Position numbers and translations under genes: made by a program. Below, in pieces: positions 15,372 through 57,044 of a DNA stretch of 64,000 bases (positions within the stretch are counted from its first letter, which is position 1; every line of letters begins with the position of its first letter). The stretch is taken from positions 3,720,001 through 3,784,000 of the forward strand of contig NZ_CP015772.1 of the NCBI RefSeq assembly GCF_001654455.1. Reading direction: 5' to 3'. This stretch comes from Niabella ginsenosidivorans. Its GTDB lineage: Bacteria; Bacteroidota; Bacteroidia; Chitinophagales; Chitinophagaceae. The notes beneath the pieces were generated by a model that saw only the letters and a program-made list of their open reading frames with translations, did no database searches and had not been told where the DNA came from.

Positions 15372-16511
15372 CTAACGAAGCAGTGCGGTGGCGCACCAAA
15401 GCAGCGGAGCCTGGCCGTGCAGATCACCGGTGATGCGTTTACGATCCAGGTAGTATTGATGATCATTTTTCTTATTGGTGCCTTCGCATACATCTGTAAC
15501 AGCGCCATCCGCATTGATGTATGTAATTAATGAAAGCCAGGCCCTGCGCGCAGCAGGCCCATATATATTTTTATCCAGCCACCCTTCTTTTACACCGGTG
15601 ATAAACGCAAAGGCAAACATGCCGGTAGCCGATGTTTCTTTCCAGGAAGCAGGATCATCGATCAACTGCCGCCACATACCATCTGCTGCCTGATACTTTA
15701 ATAAGGCGGCCATCATTTTTTTATACCCTTCCATTATCCGTGGCCTGTCCGGGTTGTCCTTTGGTAAAGAGCGCAACAGTTCGCTCATTCCGGCAGCCAT
15801 CCAGCCATTGCCCCTGCCCCAGTAATACGGTACATCCGGTGCATGATAAAAAAGCCCGCTGGGCTGCTGCAGTGAATCCAGGTAAAAGACCATTTCATGA
15901 GCCGCCTTATCAATATACCTGCGATTCCCCGTAGCCCTGTATGCCTGCGACTGAACCGCTGTGATCATAAACATATCATCGATCCACAGCCGGGTTTGCC
16001 AGCTCAGCCCTTTGTTATAAAAACGATAAGATTCAGCGGTTACCCTTTTGCCCTCCGGCGGACCCCATTGCTTATCCGCAAATAATTTTCCCGGTTTCAG
16101 GTAACGGGCATCTCTTGTTTGCAGGTATAATTCCAGCGGCACTGATCCGAATACGGTGTAGTCCACATGATCAGGTACCGGGATCAATGTATCCTGGTCT
16201 GCAAACAGGGGCTCAAAACGATCCGCCATTTGCCGGGTCAGCGATCTATTGCCGGTTACCTTAGCAAATGTCAAAACACCATACCAGGTGCAGGTTTCAG
16301 GGTAGGTGATTACACGGGGCGGCCCTGGCCGGTTAAAATTGGTATGCGGGGTTTCCACAAAGCGCGCTGCGATCCGGTCACCAATCTCTTTTGGCGATGT
16401 ACCTTTGGGCCAGTTTTGAAATACATCCATCTTTTGAGACTGTGCAGCAATATTAGTACTGCCCAGCAGCATGATAGCAGGGCTTGTAAGGAAAATGGTT
16501 AAGGATTTCAT
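15372..16511 (-). CDS. GH105 unsaturated rhamnogalacturonyl/uronyl hydrolase
   Basis: Glycosidase of the (alpha/alpha)6 barrel type that removes 4,5-unsaturated uronic acid from oligosaccharides released by lyases. The ATG at 16511 gives a signal peptide, MKSLTIFLTSPAIMLLGS, ending near AAQ at residue 24; a longer frame to 16541 begins with TTG and is not preferred. Typical features are TWYGVLTFA (about 76-84), the substrate-site Asp in HVDYTVFGS (about 117), the conserved catalytic region WIDDMFM (Asp178/Asp179) and YYWGRGNGWM (about 252-261). 379 residues is normal. It is the last gene of the susC1 transcription unit, 490 bases after the SASA esterase gene. Confidence 0.9.
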   Translation of the reverse strand: MKSLTIFLTSPAIMLLGSTNIAAQSQKMDVFQNWPKGTSPKEIGDRIAARFVETPHTNFNRPGPPRVITYPETCTWYGVLTFAKVTGNRSLTRQMADRFEPLFADQDTLIPVPDHVDYTVFGSVPLELYLQTRDARYLKPGKLFADKQWGPPEGKRVTAESYRFYNKGLSWQTRLWIDDMFMITAVQSQAYRATGNRRYIDKAAHEMVFYLDSLQQPSGLFYHAPDVPYYWGRGNGWMAAGMSELLRSLPKDNPDRPRIMEGYKKMMAALLKYQAADGMWRQLIDDPASWKETSATGMFAFAFITGVKEGWLDKNIYGPAARRAWLSLITYINADGAVTDVCEGTNKKNDHQYYLDRKRITGDLHGQAPLLWCATALLR

Positions 16512-16614
16512 GTATCTGTTTTTATTTTTTTCGTTGATCAAAAAGTTGTGTCCGCCAGTCCCGATTGTATTATTTCATAAGGCTGTCAATGCTAATAAAC
16601 AATAATGGCAGAAT

Positions 16615-16834
16615 GTCATCCTGAGTTTTCCATTTATAAAAACAAAATTAATGAGGCGATGACAATCATTCTTACGGGTCACCCTGCCCCGAATGTTCGG
16701 GGTGTTTCAGGGTCTACTCCTGTTTCAGGGTCCGGGTGAGCGATCAATAGATGCCGAAACAATTCCGAACTATCGGAACGGCATGACAAAAAGAAAGATT
16801 GATTTTCAAAACAATAACACATCTGTTATTGGCA
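16615..16834 (+). repeat. dispersed intergenic repeat, copy 1
   Basis: Copy of a sequence also found inverted at 57493-57720. The core at 16723-16834 (112 bases) matches the other copy with about four differences; it includes gagcgatcaatagatgccg and gcatgacaaaaagaaag. A weaker flank at 16615-16690 (gagttttccatt, then gaggcgatgacaatc) also matches, with a diverged middle. The rest of the 489-base gap to 17000 carries further repeat-like text (gcttcgacaagctcagcatgac near 16912). No open frame here looks real. Confidence 0.85.
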
Positions 16835-17000
16835 ACCCGCCCCGCCAGAATGACTTTGTCGGGCTGGCGTGCCGGTCAGACGGGCCTGACGAAGGGTGAT
16901 TTTATAATCGTGCTTCGACAAGCTCAGCATGACAATCAATATTGGCACCAAAAAAAGTAGGTGTCACCCAGCCTGCCGAAGGGCATGGTTCGACAGGCCT

Positions 17001-18515
17001 TTATTGTTTATTCATGGTTTCACCGGGCCAGTCGTCTGTCCGGTACGGAGATGCGGGCAATCCGGCCTCATTATACAACAGTGCATGCGGGAAATGCTTC
17101 CATCCGTAACGCACAGCCACGGGCTGCTGCACTGCCTCGCTCCATACAACAACCGTATTACCTTCAATCCTTGCATTTGCAGGCACAAATTGCTGATCCT
17201 TACCTGCAATCATAAACTCAGCGGCTGCTCCATCTTTCAATATCAATCCCCCATCTGCAAAATGAAACCGGACCCTGATCTTATTTCCCTGCGTTTGCAT
17301 GCCCTCGTATACCGGGCCCGAATACGGGATCTTTTTCCCGTAATCCTTTGCCAATGCCCATAAAGCCAGCCGGTGGCCTACCACATCTTTAGTACGCGGG
17401 TGAATGTTCAGAGAATCGCCTATATCTGTAATCACAGCCATCCCTGTATGGGGAACAGATTTATACGTAAGCAGCTGTGCTTCTCTTATTTCCGGGTTTT
17501 GCTTATAATGCGGGGCGATCTGTACAAAATAAAAAGGAAAATCATCCTTCCATTCCTGCCGCCAGCTGTTGATCAGGGCAGGAAATAATTTACGGTACTG
17601 GCAGGCACGATCCGCATTCGATTCTCCCTGGTACCAGATCGCTCCTTTAATGGTAAAAGGGATCAAAGGATGGATCATGGCATTGTACAGTTTGGAGGGA
17701 GATTTGGAGTTCTTAAGCGGATCAACCGGCTTTACAGGCTTCTTATTTCCGGCAGTGTCCTTTTTCCATTTATCCAGTTGCAGTTCATAATGCTTCAGGT
17801 CATCCGGATACGTCTTCATTGCCGTTTTATAACGATCCAGTATGGGCAAAAAATCTTTATCGGACAATAACACTTCCTTCCGAACCCATGATTCAGCGGG
17901 CGTTCCGCCCCAGGAGGAATGAATGAGCCCCACCGGAAACCCGGTTGTCTTACGGATCTCCCGGCCGAAATAGTAAGCAACTGCTGAAAAGCCGGCTACC
18001 GTTTGTGGGGTGCAGGCATCCCATTGCCCGTTTACATCCGCTAACGGTTCATCTGCCACTTCCTGTTTTACCGTAAACAAACGTAATTCAGGATCACCGG
18101 CCTTTGCTATCTCTTCTTCATAATGAAACACCCCCGTACGCCAGGCTTTTTGCTTGCCCAGCGGAAACTCCATATTGGACTGGCCGGAACATAACCATAC
18201 CTCACCCAGTAAAACATTTTTAACCGTGATTGTATTGCTGCCCTTAAAAAGAATGGAATAAGGGCCACCTGCCGCAATGGTTTGCACACGCACCTGCCAG
18301 CGCCCTTCTTTACCGGCTGTAACGCTGACCGGTTGCCGGTTCCAACTGCATTGCACCGTTACTTTTTCACCGGCAGCAGCCCAGCCCCATAAGGCCACCC
18401 TGGTATTTTGCTCCAATACCATATTGTCTGCTATCAGCGCCGGTAACTTTATTTCGGCATGCGCATTGCCAAACAACAATAGCGCTGCTACAGGAAGTAT
18501 CCATTTATTTTTCAT
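17001..18515 (-). CDS. sialate O-acetylesterase-like carbohydrate esterase (SASA family)
   Basis: Secreted SGNH-type esterase that removes acetyl groups from glycans. 504 residues with a signal peptide ending near AHA (residue 20). An N-terminal beta domain (about 21-100) precedes the catalytic motif GEVWLCSGQSNM (about 104-115, nucleophile Ser113). Downstream are GTPAESW (about 209-215), IWYQGESNA (about 295-303) and a His in the HPRTKDVVGHRLALW region, all family hallmarks. Despite the family name, sialic acid is not implied; in polysaccharide loci these enzymes act on acetylated plant or microbial glycans. It starts ten bases after the GH29 stop codon, so the two are co-transcribed. Confidence 0.92.
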   Translation of the reverse strand: MKNKWILPVAALLLFGNAHAEIKLPALIADNMVLEQNTRVALWGWAAAGEKVTVQCSWNRQPVSVTAGKEGRWQVRVQTIAAGGPYSILFKGSNTITVKNVLLGEVWLCSGQSNMEFPLGKQKAWRTGVFHYEEEIAKAGDPELRLFTVKQEVADEPLADVNGQWDACTPQTVAGFSAVAYYFGREIRKTTGFPVGLIHSSWGGTPAESWVRKEVLLSDKDFLPILDRYKTAMKTYPDDLKHYELQLDKWKKDTAGNKKPVKPVDPLKNSKSPSKLYNAMIHPLIPFTIKGAIWYQGESNADRACQYRKLFPALINSWRQEWKDDFPFYFVQIAPHYKQNPEIREAQLLTYKSVPHTGMAVITDIGDSLNIHPRTKDVVGHRLALWALAKDYGKKIPYSGPVYEGMQTQGNKIRVRFHFADGGLILKDGAAAEFMIAGKDQQFVPANARIEGNTVVVWSEAVQQPVAVRYGWKHFPHALLYNEAGLPASPYRTDDWPGETMNKQ

Positions 18516-18525
18516 GCCTGCTTTT

Positions 18526-20310
18526 TTATTTTATCGGTTCCGCTATGATCGATTTCAGCTTAAACAATTCTTTGCCTTGCTGATACGGTTTAACGGTAAG
18601 ATGGTAAATACCCGGAGTCGCAGCAGTAAAAATAGCTACAGGATGTTTTATAAACAATAACGGGGCCTTCCGGTCAAACTCCGAGGTACGCAACGTGCGG
18701 AACAGGTAGCTTTTATCATCCACATTTAAAACCCCTTCCTGTTGCGCGCTTTCCTGCGGGCAGGCATATTCCAGTATCAGTTTATAATCGCCGGGATCTG
18801 TTATACGCACCATAAAGACTGCACTATCAGCAGGAGCTTGCAGGTCTGTTACACAGGTTGTATGCTTCCAGTCGCCGTAATAATAGCTGTAGGTTAGGGA
18901 CTGGATCTTTGCATTCCCCGTAACTTCCGCAAACACAGCATCCACTGTATTGTTTTCAAAAGCGGCTGAAACGGTAACAGGTGCCCCTGCATTATATGCA
19001 GGAGGCGTGCCCCGGAATTCCACCACCAATACGGTATTGGGGCTGCGCACATTTTTTACCGCAGCCATGTTAATATACAGATCCTCTCCTTTTTTTATAA
19101 AAGGCAGCTTTACGGCTCCATCCAGTGCATAAACGTTTGAAACAGCATTTGTAAACCCGGGCACCAGCACTGTATCGTTTAACGGGCGATTGAATACGTG
19201 GAGAAATAACTTACCCGGTTTGGCAGTGGTTACTCCCCAGGGCTGCGCAGGAATAAAACCAGCAGTTGACGCATAAATGCCGGCGCCGTTTTTCTTTAAC
19301 CAGGCACCTGCCCTTTGTAAATACTTTACTGAATACTCAGGAATTTTTCCCGAACCATCCGGGCCTACATTCAACATCAGGTTACCGCCTTTGGAAGCCA
19401 CATTGGCAAGCAGCTTTATAATTTCATCCGGCGACTTAAAATTCATATCGTGCGCAATATATCCCCAGGAATCATTGTGCGTATAAATGGATTCCCATGC
19501 CCCTTCAATAGGTACCGGTGGCACTTCGGAATCTCCAAAATCTTTATAATCCCCCATACCCTGACCTACGCGACTGCTGAACAAACTATTGGGTTGTAAT
19601 TGCCTTAGCTCCTTTACAAAAGCCGCCGTTTGTTCTTTTGTCATTCCGCCAGGCGTATCAAACCAAACAATACCAAGCGGGCCGTAATTGGTCAACAATT
19701 CCTTTAGCTGGGGAATGGCTTTCTGCCGGTAATATGACTGATAATCTTTTTTTGATTCATCGTAATCCCAGGTATTCCTTCCTCCATTGGGCTCATACCA
19801 GTCCTGAAACTGCGAATAGTAAAATCCAAAGCGGATGCCTCTTTTACGCATAGCAGCAGACAGCGCTTTCATGGGGTCCTTCTTATACGGCGTGGCATCC
19901 ATAATATCAAAACCTGTCACCTTTGAATCAAACATAGAGAAGCCTTCATGATGTTTGGCCGTAATGACCATATATTTTACACCGGCATCCTCTGCTAATT
20001 GTGCCCATTCTTCCGCATTAAAATTTACCGGGTTAAAATCTGCTGCAATCTTCCGGTAATCTTTAACGGGAATCTTAGCCTGGTTCATGATCCACTCCCC
20101 GCTTCCATAATAGTTCTTGCCCTTCCAGGTGCCCGCCAGCTTTGAATATAAGCCCCAGTGAATAAACATACCGAATTTTGCATCTTTAAACCATTGAATA
20201 TTGGGATGCTCTTTTTTTGATGCGGAGCTATCCCACATTTCCTCCATCCCCTGGGCTTTGACTGTACAAGAGGCTATAATAAGGTATAACGTAAATAAAA
20301 TATGTTTCAT
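18526..20310 (-). CDS. GH29 alpha-L-fucosidase (first of three)
   Basis: Retaining exo-alpha-L-fucosidase, secreted (signal peptide to about residue 20, CTVKAQ). The (beta/alpha)8 domain shows KFGMFIHWGLYS (about 45-56), ITAKHHEGF (about 116-124), FGFYYSQFQDW (about 161-171) and GIVWFDTPGG with the nucleophile Asp218. A C-terminal beta-sandwich region spans about 350-594, with an extra beta module at the end. 594 residues is long for GH29, reflecting that module. It sits between the two-domain esterase and the SASA esterase. Linkage specificity cannot be read from the sequence. Confidence 0.94.
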   Translation of the reverse strand: MKHILFTLYLIIASCTVKAQGMEEMWDSSASKKEHPNIQWFKDAKFGMFIHWGLYSKLAGTWKGKNYYGSGEWIMNQAKIPVKDYRKIAADFNPVNFNAEEWAQLAEDAGVKYMVITAKHHEGFSMFDSKVTGFDIMDATPYKKDPMKALSAAMRKRGIRFGFYYSQFQDWYEPNGGRNTWDYDESKKDYQSYYRQKAIPQLKELLTNYGPLGIVWFDTPGGMTKEQTAAFVKELRQLQPNSLFSSRVGQGMGDYKDFGDSEVPPVPIEGAWESIYTHNDSWGYIAHDMNFKSPDEIIKLLANVASKGGNLMLNVGPDGSGKIPEYSVKYLQRAGAWLKKNGAGIYASTAGFIPAQPWGVTTAKPGKLFLHVFNRPLNDTVLVPGFTNAVSNVYALDGAVKLPFIKKGEDLYINMAAVKNVRSPNTVLVVEFRGTPPAYNAGAPVTVSAAFENNTVDAVFAEVTGNAKIQSLTYSYYYGDWKHTTCVTDLQAPADSAVFMVRITDPGDYKLILEYACPQESAQQEGVLNVDDKSYLFRTLRTSEFDRKAPLLFIKHPVAIFTAATPGIYHLTVKPYQQGKELFKLKSIIAEPIK

Positions 20311-20486
20311 TTTCTGTTTTTTATTTTTTCAATCGTCACCCAAGCGGGGCTGACTAAAAAGACTCCCTTGATTGTCTTATTGAGGCACTCATAAAAGCGT
20401 TGCATTTATGCTTATTGTGATGACAATTTTTTTTAGTCGTCATCCCCGGCATTGCCCCGTCCCGTGAGGCACTGACCGGATTTCTT

Positions 20487-22457
20487 TTATTGATTTACCA
20501 GGAAATGAACAATGCGCACTGCGTTTCCTTTTGACTCTTCATTTTTGCCGGGCGCGATTGTGATCTTAAGCCGGTGCGCACCGCTTGTAAGATCATCTGC
20601 CAGCAATATATACCAGGGTAAATGAAGCCCCTTGCTCCATTGTGTATATAGATCAACGGTCTTTGTTGCTTTGCCGTCAACCGAATACCGGATGCTTCCC
20701 GCGTCAGGCCCGGAAACCACCGCTATTCCTACAGCCGTTCCATTAAAAGGCAACTCCATTGTTGCACCGGGTGTTGAACCCACCAATACCGGCACCTGTA
20801 CAAAGCCCGGTCTTGTGTGCACACCATCTTCCGGCACCCAGGATGGATCCAAAACAAACCCTTTGCCAACCACTGCCTTATCAGACGAAAGATAGCCGCC
20901 TTTTGTATAGCTGTGCGCGTCCAGCATAGCCGGTAAGCAAGCCGGAGTCAATGCCACAGCTCCGCTTTTCCTAAAGGCGCCTGCCAGTAATGTTTGTATC
21001 GTATTTGCATACAATGCCTGCCCAAAGGGTGAGGGATGCAGGTTTTTGAAATCATCGTTCCAGGTAAATTCCTTGTTACCGATGCGCCGGTACACTTCTT
21101 CTGCAAGATTTATGAACGGCAGATGGTAATAACGGGCCAGTTCTTCATGCAATTTTATCTCTGTCGGTATTTTACCAGCCTGGTAACCGGCCAGCTTAAA
21201 CTCATCGGCAAAGCCCATTAATACAATATTTACAAATGGATCGGTATTCAATACATGGCGAATAATCCCTTCCAGCGCACGGCGTTGTATAACGGCGGGT
21301 GTTCCGTTTACATAATCGTTGACCGCAGCTTCCACAAAGAGCAGATCAATCCGCCCCTGATCCAGTACATCCTGCTGAAGACGGAACACATGTGGCAGGC
21401 TACCCAAAGAGGGAATACCGGCATTTATAAATTTAAAGGGCACATCAGGGTAGCGCTCTGACAGGTACCTGCATACCTGGTTACGCCAGCCTTCCATGTT
21501 GGTAATGGAGCCACCCAAAAATGCAACTGTTACTGCTTCCTTATTTTGAATGCGATGCAACACATTATCCAGGTTGCCATACCGGTAAATAAAATCATCC
21601 GCCGGCAATAACCCTGTAACCGGCACAGAATGATCATAGATAAATGCTGCCTGTTTCTCCGGATGTTCAATCGGGAAATGATGCCCGTTCAGCTCCTGTT
21701 TGCCTTTTGTCATTGGAACAACCGTTGCCGGGCCGCCGTTATTGATATAATTACGCACCAGGATAAAGGTATTTTCATCATTGGGCACCAGGCTATCCTG
21801 TAGTCCGATCACGTGCAGCACTGGTACTTTAAAGGCCGCCAGCGTTTCCAGGTGATCCTTTGGCTGATCATTGTATTGCAGTGCCTGTTCCTCTGTAAAT
21901 CCATATACTTTTAGTAATTTTTTCCATTCTTCCGGGGCACCTTTGCCTTTGCCCTTACCTCCCGGCCAGCTTGTAAAATCACAAACAGGAGCTTCTGCAT
22001 AAATGCAACTCACTTTAGACGGGTTCCTTTTTGCCCATGCATAGGCATACAAACCGCCCCTGCTTACCGCTTCCAGTGCGGGCCTGGAAGAAAAATGTTT
22101 TGTGTGCACCAGGTAATCATAAAAATCATCCCATACATTCATCGCCGATGAATGGCCATACCGGTCATTGGCTTTTATATAAGCAATATAAAAACCCCGT
22201 TCCAGTAAAATGCTGTCCATTTCAGTATGCCAATCGGGGAAATAGGCTCTCCATACCCAGGGATTCCCGGCAACAGGCTTATGCGGTGCTATATACCAGG
22301 CTTCCGCGCCGTTCAATAAGAACGTATACTTTTTAAATTGCTTCCAGGCCGTTTCATTCTGAGCCGTAATTTCCTGAGCCGCACAATAAAAAGCCTTACC
22401 TAAAAACAACAACAGGAAAACCCAACAGCTTAATCGTATGACCAGATTTTTTTTCAC
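20487..22457 (-). CDS. two-domain esterase: alpha/beta hydrolase plus SGNH hydrolase
   Basis: A 656-residue secreted protein (signal peptide to about residue 28) that joins two unrelated hydrolase domains. Residues of about 30-285 look like an alpha/beta hydrolase: the nucleophile elbow reads AVSRGG (Ser132) with Ala replacing the usual first Gly, an Asp appears in GLQDSLVPN and a His in ELNGHHFPI. Residues of about 305-490 are an SGNH/GDSL domain with block I FLGGSIT (Ser317) and the late DxxH-type segment KNLHPSPFGQ. A beta-rich C-terminal part follows (about 500-656). Such pairs are thought to be carbohydrate acetyl- or other acyl-esterases in polysaccharide loci. The start codon is GTG. 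It lies between a glycosidase-like gene and GH29. Confidence 0.82.
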   Translation of the reverse strand: MKKNLVIRLSCWVFLLLFLGKAFYCAAQEITAQNETAWKQFKKYTFLLNGAEAWYIAPHKPVAGNPWVWRAYFPDWHTEMDSILLERGFYIAYIKANDRYGHSSAMNVWDDFYDYLVHTKHFSSRPALEAVSRGGLYAYAWAKRNPSKVSCIYAEAPVCDFTSWPGGKGKGKGAPEEWKKLLKVYGFTEEQALQYNDQPKDHLETLAAFKVPVLHVIGLQDSLVPNDENTFILVRNYINNGGPATVVPMTKGKQELNGHHFPIEHPEKQAAFIYDHSVPVTGLLPADDFIYRYGNLDNVLHRIQNKEAVTVAFLGGSITNMEGWRNQVCRYLSERYPDVPFKFINAGIPSLGSLPHVFRLQQDVLDQGRIDLLFVEAAVNDYVNGTPAVIQRRALEGIIRHVLNTDPFVNIVLMGFADEFKLAGYQAGKIPTEIKLHEELARYYHLPFINLAEEVYRRIGNKEFTWNDDFKNLHPSPFGQALYANTIQTLLAGAFRKSGAVALTPACLPAMLDAHSYTKGGYLSSDKAVVGKGFVLDPSWVPEDGVHTRPGFVQVPVLVGSTPGATMELPFNGTAVGIAVVSGPDAGSIRYSVDGKATKTVDLYTQWSKGLHLPWYILLADDLTSGAHRLKITIAPGKNEESKGNAVRIVHFLVNQ

Positions 22458-22562
22458 TTATTACTATTCACGCAAAGCATCAGATCCACTAAAATACCAA
22501 ATTATGCAGGTATCTTACAGCTCTTATTGGCTATTTATTAAACGTTATATTCTTTCCTTTAT

Positions 22563-25109: not shown

Positions 25110-25110
25110 T

Positions 25111-27165: not shown

Positions 27166-27196
27166 TAAAAATTCAGTTAAAAAATAAGCCGGCTAT

Positions 27197-28765
27197 TTAG
27201 CGGTAATCAGGATTTTGAAAATCAGGCCCCATCATATCTACCTCTGATTGAGGCACCGGCCAGTAATAAAAGCGGTCTTCAAACACGCGGGTCACATTCC
27301 CCGGGTCTTTTACCCCGTTCAGCACTTCTTTGCCAATTTTCCATCGTTTGATGTCGTAATAACGCAGTCCTTCAAAAGCCAGCTCCACCCTTCTTTCATT
27401 ACGTACCATCTCCCGCGTAAGCGGCGCAGTTTTCGGAGGCATGCCAATACCCGGTCGTGCCCGGATATCATTAATGGCCTTTAATGCAGCCGGATCGCTG
27501 GTTGTGCCACCGCCCAGCTCTACCATCGCTTCTGCATACATCAGCAATACATCAGCGTAGCGAAGCTTTACAAGGGCCTGGGAGCTGCCGGAAGGGCCAC
27601 CGGAACCATCATTTACCGTAAGGTTGATGTATTTCCGCATACCTAGATTATTAACAGAAGGAGATTCTGCCTTGAATTTTGCCTCGTTGTTAAACCCTAT
27701 CGTTGGATTATACGCCCAGGGATCGCCCGGGGTAAAGATGGTCAGCTTCAGGCGGGGGTCTCTGTTCCTGTAAAAATCATTCCGCATCCTGTTATTGGGG
27801 TCATAGAACGATGGAACGACCGGCGCCACCGGTTTGGAGCCGTCCAGCATTTCATAACTGTCTACCAGCTGGTGCAAAGGCACCATGGAAAACCGGGAAC
27901 CATATAAAAGATCCAGGTTGTGAACAATCGTCGGGCTGCTGGCTTTTATTGAAAATAATATTTCGGGGTTATTATCCTGTTCTCCCCAGAAAATACCCTG
28001 GTAGCTGTTCGCCAGTGAGCTCTTTCCTTCTGTGATTACTGTTTTTGCCGCATCAGCAGCCTCCTGCCATAATTCATTATACAGGCAGATACGCGCCTTT
28101 AATGCCAATGCCGAGGCCCTTACCGGATGCCCGGTGCTATAGGCGGTATTCGGAAGCCCGGCCGCTGCGGTATCAAGGTCTGCCAGGATCTGTTTTGCAA
28201 TAGCCGCCCGCGGTGTTTTTTGTATTTTAAAAACGTCCGGCCCAAAGCCAAGCTGTTCGGTCACAAAGGGAACATCGCCATACAGCATCGTTAATTCATT
28301 ATAAAAGAATGAACGGAGAAAATAGACCTCCCCCTTCATGCGTGCCTGATCGGCTTCAGTAAGATCAGGCACCCGGTACAGGTTTCCTAAAAACCAGTTA
28401 CAGGCAGCAATGCCTTTATAGGCATCTGTCCAAACACGGGACTGAATACCGCCAGATGTGGGTGTAAGCACGCCCCGTGAAATATCCGTATAGCTATCCA
28501 GTGTGGAATTGCAATAGGCATTATCAGAAAGACCTTCCATTTGCAGGGATGAGAATGAGCTGGCGTCTATGGCAAAGGCAGGAGTTCTCAATGTACTGTA
28601 ACAGCCGGCAATTGCCAGTTCTGCATCGTTTTTGGAAGTCCAGAAAACTTCATTGGTAATTTTATCGGTAGGTTGTTTGTTGAGAAATTCATCCTTATTG
28701 CAACTACAGTAAGCAAACAACAGACAGCAGATTATAAATCGAATGCAACTATTTTTTATAAACAT
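27197..28765 (-). CDS. SusD/RagB family glycan-binding lipoprotein 1
   Basis: Outer membrane lipoprotein that caps the SusC1 transporter and captures glycan. 522 residues. The lipobox CSC (Cys22, within FAYCSCNKDEF) is followed by the typical FLNKQPTDKITNEVFWTSKNDAE start. SusD landmarks are AYKGIAACNWFLGNL (about 109-123), GEVYFLRSFFYNEL (about 144-157), RASALALKARICLYN (about 210-224) and the C-terminal INDIRARPG and FEGLRYYDIKRW. It starts ten bases after susC1 and is co-transcribed with it. Confidence 0.96.
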   Translation of the reverse strand: MFIKNSCIRFIICCLLFAYCSCNKDEFLNKQPTDKITNEVFWTSKNDAELAIAGCYSTLRTPAFAIDASSFSSLQMEGLSDNAYCNSTLDSYTDISRGVLTPTSGGIQSRVWTDAYKGIAACNWFLGNLYRVPDLTEADQARMKGEVYFLRSFFYNELTMLYGDVPFVTEQLGFGPDVFKIQKTPRAAIAKQILADLDTAAAGLPNTAYSTGHPVRASALALKARICLYNELWQEAADAAKTVITEGKSSLANSYQGIFWGEQDNNPEILFSIKASSPTIVHNLDLLYGSRFSMVPLHQLVDSYEMLDGSKPVAPVVPSFYDPNNRMRNDFYRNRDPRLKLTIFTPGDPWAYNPTIGFNNEAKFKAESPSVNNLGMRKYINLTVNDGSGGPSGSSQALVKLRYADVLLMYAEAMVELGGGTTSDPAALKAINDIRARPGIGMPPKTAPLTREMVRNERRVELAFEGLRYYDIKRWKIGKEVLNGVKDPGNVTRVFEDRFYYWPVPQSEVDMMGPDFQNPDYR

Positions 28766-28775
28766 AAAACTTCAT

Positions 28776-32144: not shown

Positions 32145-32210
32145 ACATTTGTAATAATTAAAGTGATGGTATAATTGCCGTTGGAGACAATGATGACTGT
32201 CCTTTTTAAC

Positions 32211-32241
32211 AGGCGGAAAATGTTGCGAGCATTTTTCGCCT
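32211..32241. other. hairpin between fecR and susC1
   Basis: The stem aggcggaaaatg / catttttcgcct (32211-32222, 32230-32241; one wobble) with a seven-base loop lies in the 141-base spacer. On the plus strand it is followed by a T-rich run, on the minus strand by gttaaaaagg, so it is not a clean terminator for fecR. It may separate the regulatory transcript from the sigma-controlled susC1 transcript, or cap the 5' leader of susC1. Confidence 0.5.
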
Positions 32242-32285
32242 TTTTCTTTTATCCTTTTTAGCCGCTCATTTTTTATAGTTTTGAT

Positions 32286-33326: not shown

Positions 33327-33402
33327 AAAGCATGCGCTTAACAGTAAAGAGTACCCAATAACCGGGAACCCTTAGTCTGTTTCCATTTTTTTTGAAAAAT
33401 TT

Positions 33403-48920: not shown

Positions 48921-51401
48921 CTATAGATCCAAAAATACCACCGGAAGCTGATCTGCTTTAGCGCTGGCCACTGAACTGCCGCCATTGGTCTTTATACGAA
49001 TGATGGCCCGGCCATTGTACAACTGTACCCGCCTTGAGCCGGAAGAAGTGCCCAGGTCATCCAGTAAGATGCCATCGCCTGTAATGCCAAGCCGGATCCA
49101 GCCGGCTGCATCCAGGCACTGCACCTGTTTTGCATCATATACTTTAGCCTCAATAGTGGCTATACCATTCTCTTCTTTTATCTTTTCCAGCTTTACCTGT
49201 GCCGGTTTCCCCCATTGCTCCGTTTGATAAGTAAAACGGATCGTATCCCGGACTGTTTGCTTTCCTTCGCGTGCAATTACATAAGCCGTATTCGCACCTT
49301 TTTTGAAAACTACGTTCCAGCGCAAACCCGCTGCCGGGAAGTCCTGGCTGTTCCTTTTTTTAATACCAAAGGAGCTGCCGTTTAGAAATAACTCTGCTTC
49401 TCTGCAATTGGAATAGACCTTTATCATTTTCTCTTCTCCCTCCTTACCCCAGCGTACCGGCCAGGAGTGCCCGTAAATATGCGCCATTGGCTTTTTTGTC
49501 CAGTAAGACTGAAATACATAATAGGCCTCCTTCTTTGTAAGATCACGCGCTACCACGCCTTTCTGGTTCATATAGGGGATCGGGTTATCCGGTCTTACCG
49601 GGGTAGAAAAATCCTTAAAGACCCATTGTGCCGATCCTGTTAACCAGGGCATAGTTTCCTGCTCTTTTAAATGCCAGTCAATCAGGTTACAAATATAGGT
49701 CTCGCTCCAGTCACCGTCTTTTGAAGCACGCGCGGCGCCACCATATAAAGAAGCGTCGCCGGCGCGCTCATCCGCAGTACCGGTAGCTTTAATGTTCTGT
49801 AAGGATTTATCAGGATTTTCTGAATGACGCCCCTCATGACTGTCGCCTCCCCACTCCACATGCAAAAAATGATCGACTTTGTCAAACTCTGATTTTGAAA
49901 CTTCTTTGTACTCCGTATAAATACCCCTGTACCAGCCTGCCCAGATAGAGGGTGAATAAACGTCTACAATATCCTTACAAAAATCGCAGCGGCGGATGGC
50001 CGTTTTACGGGAAGGATCCAGTGTATGCGCCAGGCTGTTCAGCTCTTTCATATAGGTGCGGATCTTTTCCTGGTCAACCCCGATAGCCGTCGGAGCCGGA
50101 AAATCGCCAGGCCAGTCATTTTCATTCCCCAATCCCCAGATAATAACGGAAGGATGATTATAATGCTGCTCTATCATATTCCGCAGCATGCGCTTGCCCT
50201 GCTCCTGGTATACAGCGCCGCCCAGGCCACCGCGGCACCAGGGGATCTCTTCCCAAACGAGTATACCCAGGCTATCACATAAATTTAAAATAATGCGCGA
50301 TTGCTGGTAATGCGCCAGCCGGATAAAATTAACGCCCATCTCTTTTATAGCGATCATTTCCTGCCGCATCAATTCTTCGGTCATAGCTGCGGCCAGTCCG
50401 GCATGATCTTCATGCCGGTGGGTACCTCTTAACAGCAACCGTTTTCCATTTAAAAGAAAAGGGCCTTTTTTTACAAATTCAAAATTGCGGAAACCTATAC
50501 GGGAGCGGCTGGTATGTGCACCTGCTGTGGTAGTTACCGTTGCCTCTACCGTATATAATACAGGTTGCTCCGGGCTCCATAGCTGCGGATTCCTGACGAT
50601 AAGAGTGGCGGCTTCCACATCCCTGCCGGTCAGTTGCAGTGCTTTTTGTGTTTTCTGTACTTCCCTGCCTGACGGGTCTACCAGGCGTACCAGTAATTGT
50701 GCACCGGGCAATTTACCGGGATCTGAAAGCCGCAGCTTTATATTTACCGAACCGGAACGGCCATTGGCTGCCACTACCGGGGTTGCAAATAACTGGTCAA
50801 TATATAAAGCCGGTTCATACACCAGGTTCACATAGCGGTACAGGCCGCCATACAGGTTAAAATCCGACAGGTTGGAAGGCATCATTTCCAGGTCGCGCGA
50901 ATTATCACAGCGGATGACAACCGGCACCTTTCCTTTAAACCGTTTTACAAGACTGTCATCTTGCCGGAAGATATTTACTGCATCCGTAATATCTGCTGTC
51001 CATTCATCATAACCGCCAACATGGGTGCCCACCTTTGTTGTATAAACATATACTTCTGTTTTCTGCCCGGCTCCTTCAAAATGCAGGATCGTTCGGCCGT
51101 TCTTATAAGGGTTGCTGATCTTCAGCTGTGCCCGGTACCACATAGGCCCCTGGTAATAGTTTACATCAGGATCCACAGCATCTCGCTCATTGGCACAATG
51201 AGGGAGGATTACTTTTGTCCATAGAGGTACTGATTCAGGATCGCCCTGCTTCACCGGCCTTACGGCTTCCCATACGCCGCCCAGGTCCTGCCTCAGGAAT
51301 TCCCAGTTACTGATCAGCCGGGTGGATTGCTGGGCGGATGCCCGCTGCGAAAAAATTTCTAAAAAAAATACTGCAATAAAATAGAAAACTCTTTTCAACA
51401 C
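48921..51401 (-). CDS. GH2 beta-galactosidase/beta-glucuronidase-like
   Basis: 826 residues, signal peptide to RASAQ (about residue 24), start codon GTG. The order is sugar-binding jelly-roll domain (about 28-200), immunoglobulin-like domain (about 205-305), TIM barrel (about 310-610) and C-terminal beta domains. The acid/base is Glu427 in WGLGNENDW and the nucleophile is Glu516 in FLHVEWGGD. Further GH2 marks are LLLRGTHRHED and NFIRLAHYQQS. Galactosidase, glucuronidase and other activities all occur with this architecture. It comes after the FAS1-like gene in the susC2 operon. Confidence 0.94.
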   Translation of the reverse strand: MLKRVFYFIAVFFLEIFSQRASAQQSTRLISNWEFLRQDLGGVWEAVRPVKQGDPESVPLWTKVILPHCANERDAVDPDVNYYQGPMWYRAQLKISNPYKNGRTILHFEGAGQKTEVYVYTTKVGTHVGGYDEWTADITDAVNIFRQDDSLVKRFKGKVPVVIRCDNSRDLEMMPSNLSDFNLYGGLYRYVNLVYEPALYIDQLFATPVVAANGRSGSVNIKLRLSDPGKLPGAQLLVRLVDPSGREVQKTQKALQLTGRDVEAATLIVRNPQLWSPEQPVLYTVEATVTTTAGAHTSRSRIGFRNFEFVKKGPFLLNGKRLLLRGTHRHEDHAGLAAAMTEELMRQEMIAIKEMGVNFIRLAHYQQSRIILNLCDSLGILVWEEIPWCRGGLGGAVYQEQGKRMLRNMIEQHYNHPSVIIWGLGNENDWPGDFPAPTAIGVDQEKIRTYMKELNSLAHTLDPSRKTAIRRCDFCKDIVDVYSPSIWAGWYRGIYTEYKEVSKSEFDKVDHFLHVEWGGDSHEGRHSENPDKSLQNIKATGTADERAGDASLYGGAARASKDGDWSETYICNLIDWHLKEQETMPWLTGSAQWVFKDFSTPVRPDNPIPYMNQKGVVARDLTKKEAYYVFQSYWTKKPMAHIYGHSWPVRWGKEGEEKMIKVYSNCREAELFLNGSSFGIKKRNSQDFPAAGLRWNVVFKKGANTAYVIAREGKQTVRDTIRFTYQTEQWGKPAQVKLEKIKEENGIATIEAKVYDAKQVQCLDAAGWIRLGITGDGILLDDLGTSSGSRRVQLYNGRAIIRIKTNGGSSVASAKADQLPVVFLDL

Positions 51402-51429: not shown

Positions 51430-52227
51430 TTATCTTGAAGGGTACAAAGCCGCTCCGTATACGTGCACCACTCCGTTGGTAGCTATATAGCCGATAGACC
51501 TGCTGCTGGTACGATCATTAAATACGATGGGGGCAATATCTGCATTATTCTGAATATGCAGCGTAAATTTTCCTTCAGGATCAAACCCGTTGCCGCCTGC
51601 CACGTTAAACCCGGGCAGCTTGGGATCCCAGTACCCCAGCATTGATTCTTTTGTTGCTTTACTATTAGACGGCAATATCGATTGTATGGTTTTATTCTCT
51701 GCATTCAGATCGTAATAGTTAAATACCCCCTCACCGATCAGATACAGGAAAAAGTTCTTTACCGTTTCCCTGGAATAATCTTCCCATTTGGTGGCGGGAT
51801 GTGTTTGAGGCAGCCCTGTGGCCGGATTGATGATGGGGTTACCATTATCGTCATGGTCCAATATCTGGAAAGTAAAAAACAATCCTTTATCCATTACACC
51901 GGAAGTATTAAAGCCGCGTACCGCATCATTGTGCAGGAATATAAAGGTTCTCCCCGGCTTTTCATATTCTGAAAGATCAAACCCGCAATAATCCAGTCCT
52001 TTTTTCATCCACCGGAATACGGTATCTGTGGGCGCGTCCGGTGTGCCATCTGCCCGGCTCAGTAAAAATTCCTTGGCGGTCATGTTAATATTGGGATCAA
52101 TTGTTTGCTTATGATAATCATAATTCTTTTGCAGGCTTAGTCCAAGCAGCTTTTTACAGCCTGGTAAAAAAGTTGCAACAGCTGCAAGCACCAGAATGCT
52201 GTTGATGATGAATTTGCACTTTTTCAT
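51430..52227 (-). CDS. FAS1 (fasciclin)-like lipoprotein of the susC2 operon
   Basis: 265 residues. The ATG at 52227 starts a lipoprotein signal (MKKCKFIINSILVL... with FLPGC, Cys24); the open frame to 52365 would overlap the end of susD2 and lacks a signal. The body reads as one FAS1 domain: TVFRWMKKGLDYCGFDLSEY and TFIFLHNDAVRGF early, and the closing phrase ATNGVVHVYGAALYPS, which matches the H2 box of fasciclin domains (NGVVHVID type). Such lipoproteins often follow susC/susD pairs and may be surface adhesins or glycan-binding proteins. It is encoded 95 bases after susD2. Confidence 0.75.
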   Translation of the reverse strand: MKKCKFIINSILVLAAVATFLPGCKKLLGLSLQKNYDYHKQTIDPNINMTAKEFLLSRADGTPDAPTDTVFRWMKKGLDYCGFDLSEYEKPGRTFIFLHNDAVRGFNTSGVMDKGLFFTFQILDHDDNGNPIINPATGLPQTHPATKWEDYSRETVKNFFLYLIGEGVFNYYDLNAENKTIQSILPSNSKATKESMLGYWDPKLPGFNVAGGNGFDPEGKFTLHIQNNADIAPIVFNDRTSSRSIGYIATNGVVHVYGAALYPSR

Positions 52228-52321
52228 TCCTATATTTTTTTGTTTTGCCCGCCGCGGCGGGTGATTATTTTTTTTCAATGGCCAGGCAGGGTTCCTGCAC
52301 AACCGTTTCTGAAATTTATTT

Positions 52322-53896
52322 TTATCCGCCATAGCCCGGGTTCTGTACCAGTTGCCTGTTTGCATTCATGACACTCCGGTTGATCGGCCATAAAATTTTT
52401 CTCGGATCACCAAAACCGGTAGCATCGGTGGCAGCAGATCCCGCTTCTATTTGCCTTCTTTTCAGTATGGGATCCATTATTTTTACCACATTGCCTGTAC
52501 GTACCAGGTCAAACCATCTTTTACCTTCACCTACCAGCTCCAACTGGCGTTCCTTCAGGATAGCATCGGCCATTGCAGCCTGGCCGGTAACCGGTGCGCT
52601 GTCTGCCTCGTAAGCAGGAAGGCCCGCTCTTACCCGAACAAAATTCAGGTATTTCAGCGCATCGGCCGGATTGCCTGTAGCATTCAATGCTTCTGCATAT
52701 AAAAGATAGATATCCGCCAGCCTGTACATGGGTAAATACACAGGCGCCTCTTTAAAATAGTACGTTGCCAGCTCTGCCGCAGTGGATGCCTTGGTGGGAT
52801 TGACCGGAGAAGCATACCATTTAACAAACCGGTCGCGATAGGATGCGGTTGGATCATTGTTTCTTGAATACGGATCAATGGTCTGTTTCGGGCGAATATC
52901 CACCTCCGCAGGCGCTGCTACCGTTTGTGGTATCACCCAGTTATTATACAGATCAGCGTCCATAACAATCGGTTTGTTATTAGCCGTCCATGAAGTAACC
53001 ATACAGGCACAATCATTTTTAAGAAAATCCCAGTGAATGCTCCATATAGACTCAATGCTGGTATTGGGTGCTGTGAACAGGCTTTTCCAGGTGGCCTGCG
53101 GCTGAAGGTTCGCCCCGCTTGCTCCTGCATATAGGGCGCCGGTAGGGCCTTTAGCTTTAAACAGGTTGTTGATCCAAACGATGGCGTTGGCATAATCATG
53201 CTTCCACATATACACGTCTGCAAGTATGGCGCATATGGCTCCCTCACCCAATGTCCATACAGAAGGTGTCTGATTTTTTACAACCAGTGAATAGGCATTG
53301 GTAAGATCCGGTATAATCAGCTCATCGATCAGCTTATCTGCAGCCACCCTGGGTTTTTCCAGTGTATCGGTTAAACTCTCCATTGGAGTGGTCCAAACAG
53401 GCGCATCGCCCCATACCCTTACAATATAAAAATAGCAGATGGCGCGCATGGCATAACTTTCGGCCAGCGCTTTATTCATGACATCCTGCGTAACCTTGCT
53501 ATCGGTAATTGCAGCACCCGGAATGTATTTGATATTGGCGTTTGCTCTTCCTATAACTGTATATAAGCCTGACCAGTCGGAAAATTCATTATCGGTTGTT
53601 AATGAATTCATCGCCAGTTCTGTAGTTGTAATTGTTGTATAACTTAAAAAACGGTCAAAATTATCAGAGCGGTAATCCCCCCAGTACAATGCTCTTTCCT
53701 TGTATTGTGCTTCGCCAATCATTTGCTGTTGAAACCCTGCATACATGCCTGCCACAGCCGCATTTACATCGTAAAGGGTTTTGTAAAATTTACTCTGGGC
53801 TACCTGCGACTGGGGCGATACGTCCAAAAATTTATTACAACCGCTGCATACGGTAATGATACACAAAATTATGATGCTATAATTCAGTTTTTTCAT
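52322..53896 (-). CDS. SusD/RagB family glycan-binding lipoprotein 2
   Basis: About 524 residues from the ATG at 53896 (an in-frame ATG also exists at 53905). The signal MKKLNYSIIILCIITVCSGC has its lipidated Cys at position 20 and is followed by NKFLDVSPQSQ. SusD landmarks are VNAAVAGMYAGFQQQ, KALAESYAMRAICYFYIVRVWGD, AICAILADVYMW and the C-terminal AYLYAEALNATGN-like, FVRVRAGLPAYE and KRWFDLVRTG segments. It begins eleven bases after the susC2 stop, so both form a pair. It diverges from SusD1 enough to expect a different ligand fragment. Confidence 0.95.
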   Translation of the reverse strand: MKKLNYSIIILCIITVCSGCNKFLDVSPQSQVAQSKFYKTLYDVNAAVAGMYAGFQQQMIGEAQYKERALYWGDYRSDNFDRFLSYTTITTTELAMNSLTTDNEFSDWSGLYTVIGRANANIKYIPGAAITDSKVTQDVMNKALAESYAMRAICYFYIVRVWGDAPVWTTPMESLTDTLEKPRVAADKLIDELIIPDLTNAYSLVVKNQTPSVWTLGEGAICAILADVYMWKHDYANAIVWINNLFKAKGPTGALYAGASGANLQPQATWKSLFTAPNTSIESIWSIHWDFLKNDCACMVTSWTANNKPIVMDADLYNNWVIPQTVAAPAEVDIRPKQTIDPYSRNNDPTASYRDRFVKWYASPVNPTKASTAAELATYYFKEAPVYLPMYRLADIYLLYAEALNATGNPADALKYLNFVRVRAGLPAYEADSAPVTGQAAMADAILKERQLELVGEGKRWFDLVRTGNVVKIMDPILKRRQIEAGSAATDATGFGDPRKILWPINRSVMNANRQLVQNPGYGG

Positions 53897-53906
53897 GTTG
53901 CTCATT

Positions 53907-56900
53907 TTAAAAATTAACATTGATTCCAAATCCATATTCCCGCCTTTTAGGGTACTTGCCATTATCATAACCCGGCTGCAGTACATTGGATGCGCTGAAT
54001 TCGGGATCATACCCCCTGTAATTGGTCCAGGTAAGCAGGTTCGTACCATACACATAAACCGTTGCCCCCTTCAGGAATACTTTCCGGGTAATGCCCGGCG
54101 AGAACATATAAGAAAGGCGCAGACTGGACAGCCTGATGAAAGAGCCATCCTCAATGAACAAACTGTTGGCATCTTTTTTCTCATTTCCCCTGTTTTTATA
54201 TTCGGGGTAATAAGGGTACTTGGCTATATCGCCAGGCTGCCTCCATACATTGTAAGTCATTTCCGGGCTTCCGGCGCCGGTATTGGAGGGATAGCTTTGT
54301 GCATACAGCAATGCATTATACACATGGGAACCAAAAGAGGCATTGACCAGGAACGACAAAGAGAATTGCCGGTAGGTAAGGTTGTTGAGAATACCCAGGT
54401 AAAATTTCGGCTGTGCATTGGCCAGTATCTGCCGGTCGCGGTCATCTATCAGGCTGTCTTTATTCAGATTCTGCCAGATAACATCGCCACCGCGCAGTTT
54501 CCCTCCCGGATCGTACATGCTGTGCACGGTTCCGGTGTAACGCTGCCCATTGAAGGTGTATACCGGTAATCCGTTTTCATACAGGGGTTTTCCATCATCG
54601 CCCAACACCACTGTAAGCGGCTCCCAGTTATCATTGTAGGCGTTGGACTCGTTCCATTGATACACGCCAAGGTTTTTCCAGCCATAGAAATTACCGATTT
54701 TTCCTCCTTCTTCAATGTACCATTTGTTGGCCACAATAAACGGCGTGCCATCGCCCAGCTTTTTAATGATGCTCTTTTCAAAAGAAATATTTCCTCCTAT
54801 TTCCCAGGTAACGCCCCTGTTGCTGTTTTTTGCGAGGATGGGCGTACCTTTTACAGAAAACTCAAGCCCGCGGTTCTCCAGTGTGCCAAGGTTGACCATC
54901 ACATTATCAAAACCCGTTTCTCCGGGAAGGTCTTTTTGATACAGCAGATCCTTTGTAGTTTTTATATAGTAGTCTGTTGTAAAGGTTAACCTGCCGCGGA
55001 AAAAGGTCAGATCCAACCCGGCATCCTGCTGAATGGTGGTTTCCCAGTGTACCCGTGCATTTCCGAATGTAGGTGTGGTATAAGCGCCTCCCACGCCCGC
55101 ATAACTTCCGCCGGTAAACGTAACCTTATTGAGGTAATCGTTTGAACCGATGCGGTCGTTACCTACCTGGCCGGTACCGATCCTGAAGCGGCCATCCGTT
55201 AATACATTTTTTGCCCAGTTCATAAACGGCTCATCGGAAAAACGCCATCCGCCTGAAGCGGAATAGAAGTTACCGTACCTGGATTCATTACCAAAGCGCG
55301 AAGAACCGTCTCTACGGAAAATACCTGCAAGTGTATACTTCCCTTTATAACTATAGTTGGCTCTTGCAAATAAACTTGCGCCGGCGTTGAGATCTGCATC
55401 CGTATAAGTTTGTGAAGCGGTAAGATAGGAAGGCTGGGTAATAAATATTTCTTCACTGACAACATTGGCATATTCAGAGTGCGCTCTGTCGTAACGGGTT
55501 TTATCTGCACTAACGCCCAGTACTGCCTGCAAGTTATGGGCACCGCCAAAGGTTTTATTGTAATTCAAAAATGACTGGTACTCCCACGAAAATGTTTTTT
55601 GCATATCATTGGAACCATTGTTCTGGTCTTTATTGGCCGAAACATAGCGCGGTGAGAAAAACAGGTTCTGGCTGTTATTCAGCATAGCGTTAAAGGTGTT
55701 TGTAAATAACAGGTCTTTGGTGATCCGGTATTGCAATGAATTGCTGAATTGTATGGAGAACCGGTCTGTTTTATTGGTTTCAAGCAGGGCGTTTGCCAAT
55801 GGGTTGCGCTTGGAACCAACATAGCTGGTCAGTGAACCATCCGGATAATAGATCAGCGAATACGCCGGCCGGTCAAATGCAACGGCTACCGTTCTTGCGA
55901 TCGGTATTTCATTACCGGTCTGGTACATCATGGAAATATTACTCACATATTTAAATTTGGGAGAAGCCTGGTATTCTATATTGCTCCTTACCTGCACCCG
56001 TTTTATATAGCTGTTTGGTATGATCGACTTATCATTAAGGTAGTTCACCCCGGTGTAATAGTTCAGCCCTTTTTGCCCGCCACTTACGCCCAGGTTGATC
56101 TGCTGCCTGTCTCCAAGGTTACCCAGCAGCAGTTCCTGCAGGTCATTATCCGAGTTAAAACCGGGGTTCAGTGAATCAATATTCCCTCCGGTACTGCCAG
56201 TAGGGTTTTTTTGCTGCACTCTCCTGAATTCACGAACCTGGGCTGCATTGTTCTGTGGCAGCTTGTGCGCAAGCTTTCCAAAAATGCGGGAATAGTTCAG
56301 GTCAATCCGCGCCTTGCCTTCTTTACCTCTTTTAGTAGTAATAATGATAACCCCATTAGCTGCCCGTGCGCCGTAAATGGCTGCCGAAGCCGCATCTTTT
56401 AAAACTTCAATCTTATCAATATCCATGGGATTGATGCTGGCTCCATCCGGGGTAATCACACCGTCAACAAGATATAAGGGACCGTTACCGCTGTTAAGCG
56501 TTGATGCACCGCGGATCTGGATGGTACCTTCGGCACCTGGTGCGCCACCACCATCATTGGTTACCAAAACACCCGCGGCCTGCCCCTGCAATGCATCAAA
56601 TAAATTGACGGGCTGCCGCTCTTCAATATTTTTAGAAGTGATAGAGGAAATGGCGCCTGTAACATCCCGCTTTTTCTGTGTTCCGTACCCGATAACCACT
56701 ACATCATCCAGGTCTGAAACTGATTCTGATAACGTAACATCCATTGTGGCGCGACCGTTCACTGGTTCTTCTTTTTCAATATACCCTACCGCAGAGAAAG
56801 TGAGCACTGCTGATGTTCCCTTTACCTGCAGGGAGAAATGCCCCATGGAGTCAGTTGTGGTTCCGGTGCTGGTTCCCTTCAGGATAACAGAGACTCCGGA

Positions 56901-57044
56901 CAAGGGGGTGCCTTTGGCATTCAAAACCAATCCTTTTACCTGAGTTACCTGGGCATACAAGCCTGTAAACCCGAGGCATTGTAAAAGAAACAGGATACAT
57001 ACTCGTAAAAAGCAGTTACGTGCTTTGGGCAAAATTACAATCAT
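53907..57044 (-). CDS. SusC-like TonB-dependent transporter 2 (no STN domain)
   Basis: 1045 residues. The signal peptide ends near LYAQ (about residue 32). It begins directly with the carboxypeptidase-D-like beta domain (about 33-105), then VVVIGYGTQKKR (115-126), a plug domain and the barrel, ending YGFGINVNF. Unlike SusC1 it has no STN domain, so it should not signal to FecR. Regulation may instead pass through the operator-like site at 57154-57169 or through the neighbouring AraC protein. It heads the long operon susC2-susD2-FAS1-GH2-GH95 and beyond. Confidence 0.97.
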   Translation of the reverse strand: MIVILPKARNCFLRVCILFLLQCLGFTGLYAQVTQVKGLVLNAKGTPLSGVSVILKGTSTGTTTDSMGHFSLQVKGTSAVLTFSAVGYIEKEEPVNGRATMDVTLSESVSDLDDVVVIGYGTQKKRDVTGAISSITSKNIEERQPVNLFDALQGQAAGVLVTNDGGGAPGAEGTIQIRGASTLNSGNGPLYLVDGVITPDGASINPMDIDKIEVLKDAASAAIYGARAANGVIIITTKRGKEGKARIDLNYSRIFGKLAHKLPQNNAAQVREFRRVQQKNPTGSTGGNIDSLNPGFNSDNDLQELLLGNLGDRQQINLGVSGGQKGLNYYTGVNYLNDKSIIPNSYIKRVQVRSNIEYQASPKFKYVSNISMMYQTGNEIPIARTVAVAFDRPAYSLIYYPDGSLTSYVGSKRNPLANALLETNKTDRFSIQFSNSLQYRITKDLLFTNTFNAMLNNSQNLFFSPRYVSANKDQNNGSNDMQKTFSWEYQSFLNYNKTFGGAHNLQAVLGVSADKTRYDRAHSEYANVVSEEIFITQPSYLTASQTYTDADLNAGASLFARANYSYKGKYTLAGIFRRDGSSRFGNESRYGNFYSASGGWRFSDEPFMNWAKNVLTDGRFRIGTGQVGNDRIGSNDYLNKVTFTGGSYAGVGGAYTTPTFGNARVHWETTIQQDAGLDLTFFRGRLTFTTDYYIKTTKDLLYQKDLPGETGFDNVMVNLGTLENRGLEFSVKGTPILAKNSNRGVTWEIGGNISFEKSIIKKLGDGTPFIVANKWYIEEGGKIGNFYGWKNLGVYQWNESNAYNDNWEPLTVVLGDDGKPLYENGLPVYTFNGQRYTGTVHSMYDPGGKLRGGDVIWQNLNKDSLIDDRDRQILANAQPKFYLGILNNLTYRQFSLSFLVNASFGSHVYNALLYAQSYPSNTGAGSPEMTYNVWRQPGDIAKYPYYPEYKNRGNEKKDANSLFIEDGSFIRLSSLRLSYMFSPGITRKVFLKGATVYVYGTNLLTWTNYRGYDPEFSASNVLQPGYDNGKYPKRREYGFGINVNF

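Follow-up and report, generated by a model that had tools for sequence, protein, structure and literature searches.

A probably composite polysaccharide utilisation locus of Niabella ginsenosidivorans with a probable fucosylated, uronate-rich substrate

The genome of Niabella ginsenosidivorans, a member of the Bacteroidota, is a single contig (C1) of 5,627,734 bases, and the window analysed here is a stretch of 64,000 nucleotides within it, C1:3720001-3784000. Pfam searches of the window proteins find two SusC/SusD pairs adjoining carbohydrate-active enzymes and a regulator, and the region is thus a genuine polysaccharide utilisation locus (PUL). It runs from 12836 to 57044 (window positions) and is somewhat larger than the original prediction had it, with a left edge at 15372; the edge is moved to 12836 to take in a beta-helix gene that tracks the PL38-type lyase gene. 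The PUL probably digests a non-sulfated, O-acetylated glycan that is rich in beta-glucuronate, or a close uronate, and is decorated with L-fucose and alpha-D-galactose. This supports the fucosylated, acetylated, uronic-acid glycan proposed at the outset and refines it with alpha-galactose (GH31) and beta-glucuronate (GH2). The basis is homology, active-site residues where these were compared, and conserved linkage, from which we infer the order of steps, their place in the cell, the linkages and the substrate.

Enzymes, importers and regulators of the locus

The enzyme classes first named, GH88/GH105, three GH29, GH95, GH2, GH31, PL6, a PL38-like protein and two esterases, were all found with Pfam, and a jelly-roll protein by structure modelling. 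To these can be added a divergent GH95-like protein, a DUF5696 protein, an extracytoplasmic function (ECF) sigma/FecR pair, a lipoprotein-like protein and the beta-helix protein. The last is encoded on the plus strand and every other PUL gene described below on the minus strand. The GH31 enzyme (43569-45713) has PsGal31A (4xpo) as its best match, at 1142 bits. Passages of a paper on human MYORG (PMC9491548) report that W486 and Y274 of PsGal31A bind the alpha-galactoside and that R418 and E366 lie at the +1 subsite, where fucose was captured; Y432 is also named. All five residues are kept here, as W481, Y269, R413, E361 and Y427 (the chain index is the published number plus one), and this, together with the fucose in the PsGal31A subsite, makes the enzyme most likely an alpha-galactosidase acting next to fucose. 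The GH2 enzyme (48921-51401) is by kinship a probable beta-glucuronidase, its best match being the beta-glucuronidase 6d7j at 1145 bits. It holds N612-x-K614, whose position relative to what we take to be the N-x-K carboxylate motif of GH2 beta-glucuronidases was judged by eye, unaligned.

GH88 and GH105, first named without assignment to genes, are both represented, and the nearest solved structure tells one gene from the other. For the GH88-type unsaturated glucuronyl hydrolase (UGL; 39309-40508) this is 3wiw, an entry named glycosyl hydrolase family 88 (379 bits), with 2zzr at 196 bits, and the GH105-type unsaturated uronyl hydrolase (15372-16541; PF07470, 198 bits) is closest to 3k11 (122 bits) and to YteR/GH105 entries (YteR, 90 bits). 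Five genes belong to fucosidase families. Three encode GH29 alpha-L-fucosidases with PF01120 matches, namely GH29a (18526-20310; 299 bits), GH29b (34082-35506; 298 bits) and GH29c (40513-42399; 283 bits; nearest solved structure 9s0x, 269 bits), and one encodes a GH95 alpha-L-fucosidase or alpha-L-galactosidase (46009-48576; PF22124, 601 bits; nearest solved structures 2rdy, 8zbv, 4ufc and 7kmq). Where a single GH95 had been counted, there is a second, divergent GH95-like protein with DUF5703_N (22563-25109; PF22124, 59.5 bits; PF18961, 37 bits). The esterases are a SASA-type carbohydrate acetylesterase (17001-18515; PF03629, 72.5 bits) and a GDSL esterase (20487-22457; PF13472, 52 bits). Genome-wide, matches to PF02952 (fucose isomerase, 169 bits) and KduI (110 bits) are in line with the use of fucose and unsaturated uronate.

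Three lyase-like proteins accompany these enzymes. The PL38-type uronate lyase (42384-43565; PF05426, 303.5 bits) has 3nfv as its nearest solved structure (219 bits), followed at about 150 bits by the 8bdq series, which we take to be BoPL38. Its H226 and Y281 are invariant across 13 aligned sequences and align with chain positions 243 and 298 of 9fi1, of the same series; kinship and the catalytic His/Tyr (H243 and Y298 of BoPL38) together place the protein in PL38. The closest named relatives, among the best 80 of 577 and in a list that may omit records of the window's own genome, are mostly from Niabella (68-77% in five loci), with Arachidicoccus at 71%. Similarly, the PL6 lyase (36976-38346; PF14592, 140 bits; nearest solved structure 8bwk, 113 bits) is a family member by beta-helix kinship and by K227 and R248, which align with the AlyGC pair, whose Lys is presumably catalytic. 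The Arg of that pair is named in entry 5gkq. Apart from an anchor-domain match to this PL6 protein, NCBIfam gave nothing above its cut-offs on the window proteins.

The third lyase-like protein (P0003; 38401-39306) has neither a Pfam match nor a match in a PDB sequence search, and models as a jelly roll. In the predicted structure its fold is nearest to heparinase I and glucuronan lyase, the Trichoderma PL20 glucuronan lyase 2zzj being the top Foldseek match. The gene encodes 301 residues here versus about 465 in some Niabella relatives, and the family is conserved only from about residue 82 onwards. The right-handed beta-helix protein (P0007; 12836-14347), a probable uronate lyase or epimerase-like enzyme, also lacks a Pfam match. 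Its gene is present in 35 of the 294 genomes of the family, 33 of which also carry the PL38 gene, and this co-occurrence argues that it belongs to the PUL. Families missing from the VIA-align lists for these two proteins were given no evidential weight.

The two SusC/SusD pairs first described (28776/27197 and 53907/52322) are borne out by PF07715 and PF13715 matches in each SusC and PF07980 and PF14322 matches in each SusD. SusC1 (28776-32144) and SusD1 (27197-28765) stand with the DUF5696 protein (25111-27165; PF18952, 67 bits), a FecR-type anti-sigma factor (32286-33326; PF04773, PF16344) and the ECF sigma factor (33403-33996; PF08281, PF04542). SusC2 occupies 53907-57044, and the open reading frame of SusD2 (52322-54055) overlaps it at its start, the true start probably lying inside. 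Alongside is the lipoprotein-like protein (51430-52365; no Pfam match), a possible surface glycan-binding protein. Beyond the right edge lies an AraC-family regulator (58053-58919, minus strand; PF12833, PF07883) that possibly regulates the second unit; the genomes G237 and G277, both of the same genus, have relatives of it (82% and 52%) a few genes away from SusC2.

We read all of this as a single composite PUL with two SusC/SusD importers. Two pairs and two types of regulator could instead mark two neighbouring PULs with different substrates, one with the ECF sigma factor (15372-33996) and one with AraC (34082-58919), with a nuclease gene marking the break between them. In keeping with this, DUF5696 and the first SusC/SusD are each near PL38 in only 1 of 28 related regions at the cut-offs used. 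Gene order elsewhere makes such a division improbable, however. In G277 the two halves adjoin: its genes from SusC2 to DUF5696, the ECF sigma gene, SusC1 and SusD1 among them, follow the window order, though a GH28 gene intervenes, and in G237 the genes for the GH95-like protein, GDSL, GH29a and SASA join the second half directly, with no first SusC/SusD in the stretch. Moreover, ECF sigma genes come after GH29b in loci L092 and L093, relatives of SusC1 and SusD1 stand beside GH31 in the genome G406, and the leftmost gene, that of the beta-helix protein, goes with PL38.

The nuclease gene, of YhcG/DUF1016 PDDEXK type, lies at 35789-36934 between GH29b and PL6. With a GC content of 37.5% (46.8% for the locus), and with a GH29b-PL6 gap of 1470 bp here where two congeneric genomes have 51 and 161 bp, it seems to have been inserted and to stand outside the PUL proper; the insertion is possibly recent, and the gene may be mobile or serve in defence. 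Scans of the window with Rfam and for tRNAs found nothing. Beside the PUL, at positions 59238-63999, are genes for an M14 zinc carboxypeptidase and a third SusD, together with the end of an open reading frame that has no Pfam match; these perhaps form a peptide-uptake unit. Another PL38-like gene (33%) is found at C1:2970200-3010199 (L089-L090) on the same chromosome and has an ECF sigma factor, FecR and SusC/SusD of its own and a 51% relative of the UGL.

Recurrence of the enzyme set across the Bacteroidota

Parts of the set (SusC/D-GH2-GH95-GH31-PL38-GH29-UGL) recur across the Bacteroidota. PL38 orthologues (at least 54%) are found in 52 of the 294 family genomes. The close GH31 form (at least 64%) is found in 31, and 29 of these also have the PL38 orthologue (Fisher p = 1.3e-23, which is only indicative as the genomes are not independent); in 26 of the 29 the two genes are less than 1 kb apart. 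No such tracking is seen for the other GH31 form (55-58% identity; PL38 in 1 of 13), and the jelly-roll family tracks PL38 only in part (20 of 28).

Two samples of PL38 loci were compared. The first consists of 28 regions of 40 kb each, less at contig ends, chosen by hand among the 52 genomes with PL38 so as to cover a range of genera, and the second of 80 named loci, the best 80 of 577, with 10 kb on each side. At least six species occur in both, and a gene absent from the stretch read need not be absent from the genome. UGL was found in 21 of the 28 regions and 46 of the 80 loci, GH2 in 20 and 36, GH31 and GH29c each in 15 and 27, GH95 in 13 and 27, and GH29b in 13 and 26. Hosts among the 80 loci include Niabella, Chitinophaga, Pedobacter, Segetibacter, Hymenobacter, Spirosoma and Mucilaginibacter.

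By tblastn, the 108 regions divide into 46 of fucose type, 56 without the four fucose/galactose genes and 6 intermediates; by called open reading frames, the labels are 43 fucose-type and 58 others, the latter including three stretches of the window's own genome. In the 46 fucose-type regions the UGL orthologue is found in 39, the GH29b orthologue in 37, relatives of the lipoprotein-like protein (at least about 23% identity) in 32 and relatives of the GH105-type gene in 13. The smaller form, without fucose genes nearby, has GH2 in 20 and UGL in 26 of its 56 regions and relatives of the lipoprotein-like protein in none; this small PL38/GH2/UGL form points to a shared uronate core. GH31 is present in all of the five genomes tested, at 67-85% in four and at 57% in the fifth; two of them carry a small-type PL38 locus, and their GH31 are at 67% and 57%. 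It appears that the fucose module has been gained or lost repeatedly. Pfam searches of 28 neighbour proteins from related loci revealed GH28, a second PL6 form, a DUF4955 beta-helix, further GH95, GDSL, GH3 and GH97, several proteins being matchless. Matchless proteins that recur beside fucose-type loci are L041:2062-5058 (998 residues), L050:14842-16893 (683) and L057:2873-3958 (361).

Candidate substrates and a proposed mechanism

A fucoidan, ulvan or chondroitin sulfate locus would be expected to hold a sulfatase in or near it. None is present, as originally stated, and the flanks give none either: the nearest PF00884 match, one of 31 genome-wide, is at C1:4167463, about 390 kb past the right end, and the next leftward is about 700 kb away. 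GH31 points to alpha-galactose, GH2 to beta-glucuronate, and the three lyase-like proteins with the beta-helix protein to a uronate-rich chain. In the mechanism we propose, esterases would take off acetyl groups, and PL38, PL6, the jelly roll and perhaps the beta-helix protein would cleave 1,4-linkages to uronate by beta-elimination. The oligomers would be imported by SusC/SusD. Unsaturated uronate would then be removed by the GH88- and GH105-type enzymes, saturated glucuronate by GH2, alpha-galactose next to fucose by GH31, and fucose by GH29 and GH95, all under regulation by ECF sigma/FecR and AraC.

Colanic acid, FucoPol, maize root mucilage, arabinogalactan, mushroom fucogalactan, rhamnogalacturonan II, alginate and Mucorales glycuronan were weighed by their chemistry against the enzyme list. 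Rhamnogalacturonan II and arabinogalactan were set aside since their hallmark families are not among the window proteins by Pfam. A Mucoromycota-type glucuronan is the best fit among the polymers considered. For instance, passages of PMC6433966 give a Fuc:Man:Gal:GlcA ratio of 5:1:1:6 for Mucorales glycuronan and describe Mucorales exopolysaccharides as essentially beta-1,4-glucuronate with 9-25% fucose and 4-13% galactose, and passages of PMC10481521 put fucose at up to 25% in Umbelopsis walls. Likewise, two PL38 enzymes that have been characterised are glucuronan lyases, one of them inactive on alginate, according to passages of PMC9029943. Among the options named at the outset, a fungal exopolysaccharide is thus the lead candidate, more exactly the fucosylated glucuronan of Mucoromycota walls or exopolysaccharides, a choice that we hold tentatively; a bacterial exopolysaccharide follows close behind as a strong rival, and a plant gum is possible.

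Several points weigh against this choice, or against glucuronate as the target more generally. Mucoran has an alpha-linked glucuronate backbone (passages of PMC6433966), which the set does not obviously attack, and fungal polymers hold mannose although Pfam finds no mannosidase family among the window proteins. The PL38 and PL6 families include alginate lyases too, and the jelly-roll model is weak outside its core and in VIA-align ties 2zzj with heparin lyase I. As for the small form, 36 of its 56 regions have no GH2 in the stretch read. We also looked for a clade of their own for the PL38 lyases of fucose-type loci and rejected it: contexts interleave in the PL38 tree, with 17 to 19 label changes, starred branches forcing 4 and 7 (a quick tree in which several long branches are flagged), and the lyase may therefore serve many uronate glycans. 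In a second family, that of Pedobacter planticolens, 38 of 251 genomes match GH31 with an E value of at most 1e-200, and among 10 GH31 regions hand-picked from these (40 kb around GH31) PL38 lies within 20 kb in only 5, so the coupling looks looser there than in the window's own family. Finally, GH28 is found in 19 of the 43 fucose-type loci, other Niabella included, and in none of the 58 others, 15 of the 43 having it at 57% identity or more (some species are counted twice); this genome has no GH28 relative closer than 36%. Such recurrence suggests an alpha-linked uronate, or another linkage that glucuronan does not explain. One example of the GH28 genes is L031:10202-11749.

The same chemistry could be offered by a bacterial polymer, either an exopolysaccharide or a capsule, that contains fucose, galactose and glucuronate substituted at C4 and is colanic acid-like, FucoPol-like or K1-like, a reading which we regard as possible but somewhat doubtful. 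A lyase would here remove the group linked to C4 of glucuronate, the UGL would take the unsaturated unit and GH31 the alpha-galactose on fucose. The colanic acid repeat holds alpha-galactose on fucose beside glucuronate, and the fucose in the +1 subsite of PsGal31A would suit it. No mannosidase is required, and GH28 would suit a polymer with galacturonate as a further component. Phage capsule depolymerases, including a K1 capsule lyase, are among the structures that the beta-helix protein resembles, but alginate epimerases and polygalacturonases have the same fold and match it with similar or higher Z scores. Several lyase types with a beta-glucuronidase are more in keeping with a chain rich in uronate than with a repeat that has a single one, and the top Foldseek match of the jelly roll is a glucuronan lyase. 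A search of the open-access literature on colanic acid with PULs yielded only a review.

A plant polymer is unlikely, whether a root mucilage that is rich in fucose and contains glucuronomannan, a gum or a pectic fraction. Fucose, galactose and glucuronate do occur in root mucilage, the names of many hosts mark them as soil or rhizosphere isolates, and GH28 and GH105-type genes recur; however, the Pfam matches of the window proteins include no family of arabinosidases, xylosidases or rhamnosidases, and the GH31 does not belong to the alpha-xylosidase type. Very unlikely is a locus for alginate or for uronans in general, with only a small part for the fucosidases: the PL38, PL6 and jelly-roll folds do all include alginate lyases, but five fucosidase-family genes stand with a UGL and a beta-glucuronidase-like GH2, and the PL17 or PL15-type oligoalginate lyase expected of an alginate locus is lacking, PF07940 having no match in the window and seven in the genome.

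Known systems and biological meaning

Loci of this kind are well known, and parts of this one can be likened to described systems. One is the PsGal31A locus of Pseudopedobacter saltans, for which we take G406, where 102 of 103 residues over one stretch are identical to PsGal31A. It shares the close GH31 with all compared residues, a 59% GH29 relative nearby, and relatives of SusC1 (48%) and SusD1 (43%), which there come before GH31. In contrast, the 40 kb read there hold no orthologue of PL38, GH2, UGL or GH95. Glucuronan lyase systems (CUL-I, TpPL38A) were likened by description and not by sequence; they share a PL38-type lyase with the catalytic pair, and the predicted jelly roll has the Trichoderma PL20 lyase as its top Foldseek match, but the present locus adds importers, fucosidases, an alpha-galactosidase and esterases. 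The alginate utilisation locus of Bacteroides ovatus CP926, with PL6, PL17 and PL38 according to passages of PMC11381880, likewise combines PL38 and PL6 in one SusC/SusD locus. Unlike that locus, this one has no PL17-type gene and does have fucosidases, UGL, GH2 and GH31. The view that the combination is not a recognised system is upheld, in that we found no description of it in the open-access literature, which omits most subscription journals.

Relatives of the PL38-type lyase are common in the Bacteroidota (at least 577 encoding stretches), many from soil or rhizosphere by name, and the target is therefore probably a common glycan there. It is conceivable, though we would not yet count on it, that the locus represents a widespread system by which soil Bacteroidota consume the fucosylated glucuronan of Mucoromycota, with a core of PL38, GH2, UGL and the Pfam-unassigned beta-helix protein, and a fucose/galactose module that is gained or lost. 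In any case, the locus offers conserved beta-helix and jelly-roll families that have no Pfam assignment. If the fungal reading is true, soil Bacteroidota would be tied to the recycling of Mucoromycota biomass, and their enzymes would help to solve wall polysaccharides whose structure is called unknown in passages of PMC6433966.

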